From Flammeovirgaceae bacterium (GTDB lineage Bacteria; Bacteroidota; Bacteroidia; Cytophagales; Cyclobacteriaceae), in contig JAJTGQ010000009.1 of assembly GCA_021299455.1 (NCBI GenBank), positions 1 through 40,726 on the forward strand: 40,726 nucleotides of DNA, read 5' to 3'. The position numbers and the translations under genes are program-made. The first letter of the stretch is position 1. The number at the start of each line of letters is the position of its first letter. Under the pieces are notes generated by a model. That model searched no databases and was not told the origin of the DNA. It saw only the letters and a program-made list of their open reading frames with translations. This document shows positions 34,092 to 38,293 of this stretch, piece by piece.

Positions 34092-35318
34092 CTACACCAA
34101 CAATTGCTGTTTTGCTTCTTTTTGATCAATTGCAACTAAGTTCAATTGAGGCGCCAGAATGACACTTACATCCTCCCGTTTTGATAGTGATTGTATTTTT
34201 TCAAGAGTGATTGTACCTGTCATATACTGGTGCCCGGTTCCTTGGTACCCGCCTTTGAAAGTCTCGAAATCTGAGGGCGATATGGCTGACTTTTCTTGAA
34301 AACTGATTACCACGTCTACCTTGGCGTTGTTAGTGAAGGAAAAGCCCTCTCCTTGTGTGAACTTTTTGTATTCGTAGCGGTAGTCAAACGTTAGGGCTGA
34401 GATGTCAGAAAGCACAGCTGAGCCAGTGGGATAACCTCCGGCCCCTTTTCCAATAAATACTTGCTTCTCGGCAAACGCCCCCTCCACTAACACCGCATTG
34501 TACTCGTTGCGAACCGAAGCGAGCATATGATCGGCAGGAATGAATTGAGGCGCAACAAAACCAACAATCTGACCCTTGAGCTTGTAAGCACGGGCCACCA
34601 ATTTGATCGTCAGGTTGCTTTCCTTGGCATACTTCAAGTCTACTGCAGAAATTTTGTCAATTCCTACATTGATAATATTTTCCGGCTTGACAAAAACACC
34701 AAAGGTATGTGCGATAGCGATCGTCAATTTGAATTTTGGATCAAATCCCTTCACATCCAATGAAGGATCACTTTCAGCAAAACCAAGTTCTTGGGCGGCC
34801 TTCAATGCATCGGCATAGCTTTTCTTTTCTTCAAAAACTTTCGTGAGAATATAATTCGTAGAGCCGTTGAAAATACCTTCGATGCTAGTGATCAAATCAT
34901 TGTCGTAGTATTCTTCTAAATTTCTTAAAATGGGTATACTACCGCAGACAGAGCCTTCATACAGTATCGACCGATCATGTTTTTTTTGCAGCTCATAAAT
35001 CTCCCCTAGATTCTCCGCCAACATGCGTTTGTTGGCGGTCACTACATGTTTTCCGTTTTCTAAAGCGGATTTTACGATGGCAAAAGCAGCGGCAGCATCA
35101 TCAATCAATTCAACTACAATGTCGATGTCACTATCGAAAAGAATGTCATTTTTATCGTACGTGAAAATGGCGCTGTCGAGGTCGCGTTGTTTGTTTTTAT
35201 TTTTCACGCAGATCCTCTTAATCTCGGCTTTTACGCCATGTGTTTCATTGAGTACATGATAGAGACCGTGGCCGACTACCCCAAAACCAAACAAACCGAT
35301 TTTTAATTTTTTCTTCAT
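34092..35318 (-). CDS. hom: Homoserine dehydrogenase
   Basis: A 408-residue oxidoreductase with the N-terminal NAD(P)-binding motif GLFGFGVVGHGLYHVL (GxGxxG), the VTANKRMLAENLGE loop, the family signature in EGIFNGSTNYILTKVFEEKK and the catalytic region FAESDPSLDVKGFDPKFKL. It reduces aspartate semialdehyde to homoserine. The C-terminal part is short for an ACT domain, so threonine feedback control is uncertain. It starts 3 nt after the metX stop and is the last gene of the riboswitch-controlled metY-metX-hom operon. A diverged copy of its last codons lies beyond the toxin-antitoxin pair at 33346. Confidence 0.95.
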   Translation of the reverse strand: MKKKLKIGLFGFGVVGHGLYHVLNETHGVKAEIKRICVKNKNKQRDLDSAIFTYDKNDILFDSDIDIVVELIDDAAAAFAIVKSALENGKHVVTANKRMLAENLGEIYELQKKHDRSILYEGSVCGSIPILRNLEEYYDNDLITSIEGIFNGSTNYILTKVFEEKKSYADALKAAQELGFAESDPSLDVKGFDPKFKLTIAIAHTFGVFVKPENIINVGIDKISAVDLKYAKESNLTIKLVARAYKLKGQIVGFVAPQFIPADHMLASVRNEYNAVLVEGAFAEKQVFIGKGAGGYPTGSAVLSDISALTFDYRYEYKKFTQGEGFSFTNNAKVDVVISFQEKSAISPSDFETFKGGYQGTGHQYMTGTITLEKIQSLSKREDVSVILAPQLNLVAIDQKEAKQQLLV

Positions 35319-36454: not shown

Positions 36455-37825
<1,371 letters not shown>

Positions 37826-37884
37826 TTAACGTAGAAGAAAACTTAGCCATAACCATACCCGTCACTCGGTAGGCCGTGCGCTAG

Positions 37885-37939
37885 TGTGTTGTTGGACGAT
37901 CAACCGATCATTACCAACAACGTACAGAGCAACAACACA
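37885..37939 (-). promoter_or_regulatory. Mutually exclusive RNA hairpins at the end of the leader ORF
   Basis: On the minus strand, segment 1 (37930-37939, TGTGTTGTTG, the Cys33-35 codons) is perfectly complementary over 10 bp to segment 3 (37885-37894, CAACAACACA). Segment 2 (37914-37921, GTTGTTGG, last codons of the ORF) pairs over 8 bp with 37888-37895, with a further GATC-GGTT-GATC hairpin in the loop. Only one of the 1:3 and 2:3 pairings can form, as in classical attenuators. No clear U-tract terminator follows, so control could act on translation, transcription or RNA stability. Confidence 0.55.
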
Positions 37940-38033
37940 TGCTGCACTGTTGATATTGAATGGAATAAAAGAAATTTAGGAGGAGGTGTTTCCCTTGGGT
38001 GATTGACTGAATGATAAATCTTTTCATTTTCAT
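37911..38033 (-). CDS. Cysteine-rich leader peptide of the metY-metX-hom operon
   Basis: A 40-codon ORF between the riboswitch and metY. It begins MKMKRFIIQSITQG and ends CSMCCCSVRCW before a TAA at 37911-37913; five of its last 11 residues are Cys (C30, C33-35, C39). The ATG at 38033 lies 5 nt after the 3' strand of riboswitch helix P1, so SAM binding could affect its initiation. A second ATG two codons later and one at 37940 (giving MCCCSVRCW) are alternatives. The Cys codons overlap one arm of alternative hairpins. Inferred role: ribosome stalling at Cys codons when cysteinyl-tRNA is scarce. No homologue is known to me; coding has not been demonstrated. Confidence 0.6.
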   Translation of the reverse strand: MKMKRFIIQSITQGKHLLLNFFYSIQYQQCSMCCCSVRCW

Positions 38034-38038
38034 ACCGG

Positions 38039-38138
38039 TTTATATTTCCTCAAAGACCTTCTTTGAGGCAGGAATTAGCACCTTTTTCGGGGTTGCTAGC
38101 GTTTCAAAGAGCCTGTTCTCTCCACGCTTCTATATAAA
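38039..38138 (-). ncRNA. SAM-I (S-box) riboswitch
   Basis: The minus strand has the S-box core: P1 formed by TTTATAT (38132-38138) and ATATAAA (38039-38045); a GCGT/ACGC P2 with the TTGAAACGC and GCTAGCAACC segments; P3 as ACC/GGT; the conserved AAGGTGCTAATTCCTGC; and P4 as a perfect 9-bp CCTCAAAGA/TCTTTGAGG hairpin. It lies upstream of metY-metX-hom, the expected target, and about 30 nt after the predicted transcription start. No terminator follows directly; the next element is the leader ORF, so it may act on translation. Confidence 0.92.
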
Positions 38139-38173
38139 TCGGTTGGCTTTTGGCTTCACCGATTATGATGACA

Positions 38174-38204
38174 CAAACGTATACTAGTTTAGTAGAGTTT
38201 CCAA
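38174..38204 (-). promoter_or_regulatory. Promoter of the riboswitch-metY-metX-hom transcript
   Basis: TTG (38202-38204), a 20-nt spacer and TACGTTTG (38174-38181) on the minus strand match the Bacteroidota consensus. Transcription would start near 38167, just ahead of a 7-bp dyad (AATCGGT/ACCGATT, 38137-38164 outer ends) and the riboswitch. The remainder of the 516-nt gap holds the riboswitch, the leader ORF and about 130 nt of AT-rich sequence before metY. Confidence 0.75.
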
Positions 38205-38293
38205 ATGCTTACTTAAAAATTTGTTAAGAAAGTTTTACTCACAAGTGTTTGGTAATACATTTAGATTGAAAAAGTAGATAGACAAAATGCTTT

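Follow-up and report, generated by a model that had tools for sequence, protein, structure and literature searches.

A SAM-I riboswitch adjoins the start of a cysteine-rich leader ORF ahead of metY and other sulfur genes in Bacteroidota

Introduction

Leader ORFs with runs of cysteine codons, and riboswitches that act together with upstream ORFs, have each been described in bacteria. According to the passages of the reports cited here, Cys-run leaders lie upstream of cys operons in Actinobacteria, with no obvious terminators (PMC1262725), and mycobacterial polycysteine ORFs (Canestrari 2020) respond to cysteine (as described in PMC9031893). Before cysS lies the uORFC-8-2 motif, which has a Cys uORF and closes with a run of U (PMC8632094), and at metE and ppe2 of Mycobacterium tuberculosis B12 riboswitches interact with uORFs (PMC11260477). 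A survey of riboswitch mechanisms found mostly translational control outside Firmicutes, in the part of that survey considered here (PMC2258182).

Here we analysed a stretch of 40,726 nt from a Flammeovirgaceae bacterium (contig JAJTGQ010000009.1, assembly GCA_021299455.1), referred to below as the window, in which a SAM-I riboswitch adjoins a Cys-rich leader ORF, and compared it with other loci of Bacteroidota.

Results

A riboswitch and a Cys-rich leader precede metY-metX-hom

The locus comprises the following features, listed from 5' to 3' along the transcribed strand.

38174..38205, (-): match to the Bacteroidota-type promoter pattern TTTG-N20-TAnnTTTG, 33 nt 5' of the aptamer
38037..38140, (-): SAM-I riboswitch aptamer (S box, RF00162), full length; 76 bits, E 2.9e-16
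37911..38033, (-): leader ORF with five Cys codons within the last 11 residues; from the ORF list and relatives
37929..37937, (-): adjacent Cys codons TGT TGT TGC, which double as the 5' arm of candidate hairpin H1
37885..37895, (-): anti-Cys arm CCAACAACACA, 3' of the leader stop; its complementarity to the Cys codons gives candidate hairpin H1
37844..37883, (-): hairpin H2, conserved, loop GTGAC; from an alignment of 20 sequences
37833..37843, (-): pyrimidine-rich tract AGTTTTCTTCT 3' of H2; terminator-like here, unlike in most relatives
36455..37777, (-): metY, O-acetylhomoserine sulfhydrylase, the first gene of the operon; TIGR01326 673.4 bits (cut-off 495.1), PF01053
35322..36416, (-): metX, homoserine O-acetyltransferase; NF001209 331.1 bits (cut-off 331)
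34092..35318, (-): hom, homoserine dehydrogenase; NF004976 334.9 bits (cut-off 205)

RF00162 is the sole Rfam RNA at gathering score across the whole window. The match spans positions 1-108 of the 108-position model at 76 bits, against a gathering score of 44.4, and places the SAM-I aptamer 5' of the methionine and sulfur genes metY, metX and hom. The first-pass annotation had called an S box at 38039-38138, a 40-codon Cys-ended ORF, a gap of about 130 nt to metY and the identities of the three genes. All of these hold: the Rfam bounds are 38037-38140, the ORF is present at 37911-38033 and carries five Cys codons close to the stop, the gap from leader stop to metY measures 133 nt, and NCBIfam models confirm all three genes. 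The adjacency of riboswitch and ATG stands as well, and the spacing of 5 nt given earlier is corrected to 3 nt by the Rfam boundary.

The leader ORF encodes 40 residues, MKMKRFIIQSITQGKHLLLNFFYSIQYQQCSMCCCSVRCW. Its first ATG lies 3 nt past the aptamer and a second in-frame ATG lies at 38027, at +9 from the aptamer end; since the starts of relatives cluster at +7 to +9, the true start in the window may be codon 3. Seven Met-Cys-Cys-Cys sites occur in the window's genome (three for the backward pattern), and among the seven only the one at metY closes an ATG-started ORF of leader length. A second Met-Cys-Cys-Cys-stop of this genome is found at positions 1501-1512 of locus L143, where it ends a 39-codon open frame that has no ATG further upstream; a long ORF, uvrA-like as judged by eye, begins 247 nt on. 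The genome carries two copies of RF00162; the second precedes metH, and no Cys leader lies behind it.

The pattern TTTG-N20-TAnnTTTG, the Bacteroidota-type promoter consensus, matches twice in the window with 1.41 matches expected, about what chance would give, and the match 5' of the aptamer is thus weak alone. A looser pattern (TTG-N17..22-TAnnTTTG, at most 110 nt 5' of the aptamer) is present in 98 of 138 loci, versus a mean of 1.1 in letter shuffles.

Riboswitch and leader recur together

Of the 80 best metY loci from named genomes, 74 have RF00162 upstream of the gene; two of the six loci without it (L065 and L072) end short upstream. We added metY loci from a sample of the class, from the genus Mucilaginibacter and from the window's family, with at most 30 loci each, and the aptamer covariance model was positive in 70 of the 75 added loci given to it. 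With six duplicates dropped, the final set held 139 non-identical SAM-I + metY loci, the window included. A leader was called where an ATG between -15 and +25 of the aptamer end opened an ORF of 6-90 residues with at least three Cys in the last 12.

By this fixed criterion, 109 of the 139 loci, a sample that leans to relatives of the window's metY, carry a Cys leader, as compared with a mean of 0.44 loci and at most 3 in 100 rounds of dinucleotide shuffling. No restriction on the start was set for the antisense strand, which gave 3 leaders in 139 loci. After merging of loci that share >60% of their 12-mers the leader is found in 103 of 132. The median spacing between leader and metY is 128 nt (109 loci). 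Conservation in relatives was the check put forward in the first-pass annotation, and its outcome favours that reading: start position, frame and Cys run are kept in the sampled Bacteroidota, and the peptide body is variable. On this comparison of sequences, the composite of SAM-I riboswitch and Cys leader is real and widespread in sampled Bacteroidota, mainly Cytophagales and Sphingobacteriales.

The two modules also occur singly. By the criterion the Cys run is absent from 30 of the 139 SAM-I + metY loci. In a sample of the phylum, 13 of the 30 riboswitch loci with the best scores lie before metY-like genes, and none of these 13, which are top scorers and no random draw, has a Cys run. A Cys-rich ORF without a SAM riboswitch is present at L121, L124 and L128. 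In a Flavobacterium-like genus, 9 of 20 loci have a Cys-bearing ORF before metY homologs (L207-L214, L226), and seven of these nine ORFs share a motif of MMCC, later MCIP or CAP, and CC/YC near the end; RF00162 was not found in L133, the sole Flavobacterium-like Cys-ORF locus searched. Cys-bearing ORFs are also present without an RF00162 match at L031, L051, L061 and L069, the other four of the six loci lacking it among the 80 best metY loci.

The stack tends to mark sulfur-entry genes

To analyze which genes follow the riboswitch, we surveyed two families: all 58 RF00162 matches of 17 genomes (16 with a match) in one, and 90 of the 94 matches from 35 genomes in the window's family, two matches of G146 and one each of G449 and G453 being left out. 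A start of ATG, GTG or TTG at -3 to +16 and at least three Cys in the last 14 residues were required, a slightly different criterion from that of the overlapping 139-locus set. Cys leaders lie behind 72 of the 148 surveyed riboswitches, in 38 of 50 genomes, with one locus (L298) counted though flagged as not full length; 13 of the 72 start with GTG. Pfam/NCBIfam annotation was made for one representative per gene group, and the other members were assigned through blastp; the metX-like and hom-like groups, with two members each, were identified by eye. By first gene, the leaders are distributed as follows.

metY orthologs: leader at 32 of 43; 11 of 43 without a Cys run
Other PLP enzymes of the metY superfamily: 1 of 12
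cysH: 6 of 8 (L252, L262, L274, L312, L317, L326)
Nitrite/sulfite reductase (NIR_SIR): 5 of 5 (L329, L332, L333, L368, L391)
Amino-acid permease: 6 of 6 (e.g. L233, L267, L272)
RimK-like ATP-grasp protein: 6 of 6 (e.g. L235, L277, L321)
YfhL-type ferredoxin: 6 of 6 (e.g. L310, L350, L384)
osmC: 2 of 2
Sulf_transp protein: 1 of 1, a weak run with three Cys
metX-like: 0 of 2
hom-like: 0 of 2
metH: 1 of 46, a loose match
Other eight rows (a TonB-type pair, five single genes, one with a leader but no gene call): 6 leaders

Leaders at metY and at metH differ with a Fisher p of 1.4e-13, shared ancestry ignored, and the lone metH leader has a TTG start and no Cys run. This distribution by first gene suggests a tendency of the stack to accompany genes of sulfur entry, whereas methyl transfer lacks it. 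The genes carrying the stack fit the reading of the first-pass annotation that one transcript senses both SAM and Cys-tRNA, and it probably does so. The presence of the stack at all six loci each hints at unrecognised sulfur or cysteine roles for the RimK-like protein, the YfhL-type ferredoxin and the permease.

Where osmC is inserted between leader and metY (L005, L008, L014, L042, L197), the leader keeps its place ahead of both genes, at 114-171 nt from osmC. L017 has two SAM-I riboswitches within 1.7 kb, at 1055-1166 and 2607-2723, one before another gene upstream and the other with the Cys leader before metY.

The leader start codon lies next to P1

Leaders start at +7 to +9 past the aptamer in 73 of the 109 loci. 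When P1 is extended outward from the Rfam ends, it stops 3-10 nt before the start codon of 94 of the 109 leaders, and the 3' strand of P1 thus lies within the leader initiation region. In Flavobacterium johnsoniae, a member of a phylum naturally without Shine-Dalgarno sequences, structure around the start codon partly tunes translation initiation, according to the cited passages of PMC6847099. A pairing partner for the P1 3' strand, sought as the longest helix, is not enriched within the ORF (mean z 0.02, n=104) or past its stop (mean z 0.04, n=103), and a classical antiterminator is therefore not seen.

The Cys-less SAM-I + metY loci keep an ATG at +5 to +11 in 24 of 30 cases, against a background rate of 0.09, and these are not 24 independent events because many of the 30 loci, a large part of them Algoriphagus, are related; a few are near misses of the criterion (e.g. 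L171, L189, L200). Behind metH riboswitches, an ATG at this distance is found in 1 of 44. The retention of the start codon without a Cys run suggests that the target of the riboswitch is the start of that ORF, and that the riboswitch controls this start with or without Cys codons. L034, L037, L039, L045, L057, L068 and others keep a start at +9 with no Cys run. The Cys-less ORF of L060 stops 5 nt before metY, and that of L080 extends 13 nt into metY.

One possible alternative is that two independent devices stand in series, a riboswitch with its own platform, acting on termination or on metY translation, and a Cys attenuator translated at any SAM level, so that the signals add. The mgtCBR leader of Salmonella has two attenuators with independent and additive signals, as described in the cited part of PMC3641672, and the single occurrences of either module are in line with such an arrangement: riboswitches without a Cys run at the 30 loci and at the 13 of the phylum sample, and Cys-rich ORFs without a riboswitch at L121, L124 and L128. 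However, a start codon 3-10 nt past P1 in 94 of 109 leaders leaves little space for a separate platform, the P1 3' strand has no partner in or behind the ORF, and the start codon is retained where the Cys run is absent. We regard two serial devices as unlikely, though well short of negligible. The same three observations make P1 gating of leader initiation, an idea already raised in the first-pass annotation, likely.

The Cys run closes the reading frame

The 109 leaders have medians of 38 residues and 6 Cys. Cys frequency is 0.374 in the last 15 residues versus 0.014 in the body, and Cys is the final residue in 88 leaders, encoded by TGT in 43 and TGC in 45, about equally. The last 12 codons contain, in frame, 365 TGT, 222 TGC and 8 TGG (TGY 587), and TGY versus TGG is 32 versus 13 in one shifted frame and 147 versus 5, a high ratio, in the other; since the leaders were picked for Cys, this count is one-sided and supportive only. 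In 14 independent pairs of similar leaders, body substitutions at codon positions 1, 2 and 3 number 98, 86 and 112, with no third-position excess, and 15 of 24 changed Cys codons are non-synonymous. The pairwise codon test thus appears neutral to mildly contrary for coding. The missing third-position excess fits a leader whose residues matter only at the Cys run, and is itself no evidence of coding.

These features bear on three further explanations. The Cys-rich nascent chain could sense a metal or oxidation rather than Cys-tRNA; a nascent exported protein reported to sense copper by translational control offers a precedent (PMC9973294). This is very unlikely, as the peptide body is little conserved, the Cys run sits at the very end, and sulfur assimilation accounts for many of the genes that follow the stack. 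We give still less credence to the leader being a gene for a small functional protein co-regulated by SAM: a conserved start position and C-terminal Cys run would suit such a gene, but the body is little conserved, its substitutions are spread over the three codon positions as given above, and 88 of the 109 leaders end in Cys. That the TG-rich run is an RNA structural element, open in frame by happenstance, is barely credible: its Cys codons can pair with the anti-Cys arm in the window's clade and the pairwise codon test is neutral, but an in-frame run with its start at a narrow distance from the riboswitch (109 of 139 loci versus 0.44 shuffled), the about equal use of TGT and TGC as final codon and, in leaders chosen for Cys, the in-frame 587 TGY versus 8 TGG stand against it.

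RNA structure downstream of the leader

The consensus of H1 and H2 was derived from 20 sequences of the window's clade. A consensus fold of 26 sequences gave none, and L004, L010, L017, L020, L022 and L026 were left out of the alignment as not fitting. In H1, 94.2% of cells are paired over the 20 sequences with no two-sided changes, so that covariation neither supports nor opposes this helix. H2 shows two-sided changes. For H1 and H2 together, cells with two-sided change number 22, where shuffles have 8.6 and slid controls no more than 9. Two of the five covariation measures do not rise above shuffles, namely pairs with two-sided change (5 versus 3.5, reached by 78 of 500 shuffles) and further pair types (14 versus 15.8, reached by 498 of 500), and this alignment was also the source of the structure. 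On this alignment, H2 is supported by covariation and H1 is invariant. The H2 loop is GTGAC in 19 of the 20 aligned sequences and GTGGC in L014, and this constancy suggests a tertiary contact or a site for a binding partner. At gathering score, Rfam gives no hit to H2 of the window.

The Cys tail pairs with the 60 nt that follow the stop modestly more than in shuffles (mean z 0.73; 24% of 108 leaders at shuffle p<=0.05). Other downstream pairing of the anti-Cys arm was looked for in the window's clade and not seen. The downstream structure varies by clade, and the folds of Mucilaginibacter differ.

In the window H2 is terminator-like, a hairpin of -15.1 kcal/mol followed by GTTTTCTTCT. A terminator-like interval between leader stop and metY is present in 39 of 100 loci, nine of the 109 leaders having been left out of the scan for gaps of at least 400 nt, as against 12-28 of 100 in five shuffle rounds; an intrinsic terminator is thus not general as the last step. 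A scan over the whole interval from aptamer to metY gave 78 of 100 versus 18-35, a result confounded by the T-rich Cys codons. Nucleotides are unpaired with a mean probability of 0.60 around the metY start, 0.53 around the leader start and 0.46 in the interval as a whole, so local sequestration that would hide the metY start is not seen. The interval from leader stop to metY has C at 0.234 and G at 0.135; Cys-less loci have C at 0.209 and G at 0.119, and the C-richness is hence no special mark of Rho. A Rho gene is present in the window's genome.

A proposed model of a two-input leader

Comparison of the loci shows the riboswitch, the start position, the in-frame Cys run, the choice of genes and H2. 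From these elements we infer SAM binding, P1 gating, stalling, the sign of each response and a termination step. We then propose, as a reading that we hold to be rather likely, a two-input leader in which a SAM-stabilised P1 blocks the leader start and stalling at the Cys codons reports uncharged Cys-tRNA. RNA polymerase would first make the SAM-I aptamer and then the leader ORF, whose initiation region would be the 3' strand of the riboswitch P1 helix. When SAM is plentiful, P1 would be stable and ribosomes would be unable to start the leader, and the untranslated leader would lead to low expression of metY-metX-hom through termination or decay. When SAM is low, P1 would open and the leader would be translated. 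With charged Cys-tRNA, the ribosome would pass the Cys codons, end at the stop right behind them and leave, and expression would again be low. With uncharged Cys-tRNA, the ribosome would stall on the Cys codons and cover the 5' arm of H1 and the stop region, and the operon would be transcribed. Rho, an intrinsic terminator or decay are candidates for the last step. The two inputs, SAM and Cys, may be joined by AND logic or may be additive.

More broadly, the stack may act as a widespread gate across Bacteroidota: the SAM-I riboswitch would lack an expression platform and exert its effect through translation of a Cys-sensing leader that SAM vetoes, and the arrangement would be reused across sulfur-assimilation operons; we put the chances of this wider reading slightly above even. 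A SAM veto on a ribosome-based sensor of Cys-tRNA would integrate the end product and the sulfur supply through one start codon.

Discussion

Each sensor alone is of a known kind. For the stacked form, full-text searches of open-licence papers yielded no account of a Cys leader set against a SAM riboswitch. The first-pass annotation had been cautious about novelty, allowing that Cys-rich leaders might have been noted before. That caution was apt for the leaders, since Cys-run leaders are known from Actinobacteria (PMC1262725) and before cysS (PMC8632094); in the cited passages, none was found on a SAM riboswitch.

If the model holds, the locus would be a naturally occurring circuit that lets a metabolite-binding RNA switch a ribosome-based amino-acid sensor on or off. 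It would suggest a use of SAM riboswitches in bacteria that rarely rely on Shine-Dalgarno pairing, and provide a testable account of the balance of cysteine and SAM supply in a large phylum. Many short Cys-ended ORFs would be marked as regulatory, and the effect of a leader ribosome on transcription in Bacteroidota would become testable.

The following comparisons follow the cited passages of each report. The leaders of Actinobacteria and mycobacteria are alike in being short ORFs that precede sulfur genes, have a Cys run close to the stop and show no obvious terminator; they differ in that those passages mention no riboswitch, that the mycobacterial start is leaderless, and that the phylum is a different one. 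The uORFC-8-2 motif shares a uORF with tandem Cys codons in a stem and the use of both TGC and TGT, whereas it has two Cys codons, a terminal U run as in an intrinsic terminator, and no SAM aptamer. In the M. tuberculosis cases a riboswitch and a translated uORF likewise act jointly, and translation of one uORF is required for expression; the ligand there is B12, the passages do not describe the uORF as an amino-acid sensor, and ppe2 employs stop-start coupling. A stop-start overlap of the ppe2 kind is absent here, the distance to metY being 133 nt in the window and 128 nt at the median of 109 loci.

The mgtCBR leader of Salmonella (PMC3641672) also reads two signals in one leader, one of them through Pro codons, but has no SAM aptamer, uses two ORFs and keeps the signals independent. 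In the SAM-II riboswitch of Sinorhizobium metA (PMC9373788), a SAM riboswitch similarly acts on a translation start region at a methionine gene; that start region is metA's own, and no Cys leader appears in the passages cited. A further relation is to the SAM-I family (RF00162) itself, with which the locus shares a complete aptamer well above the family cut-off before methionine and sulfur genes; here, the apparent target of that aptamer is the start of a leader ORF rather than a terminator or the start of a metabolic gene.
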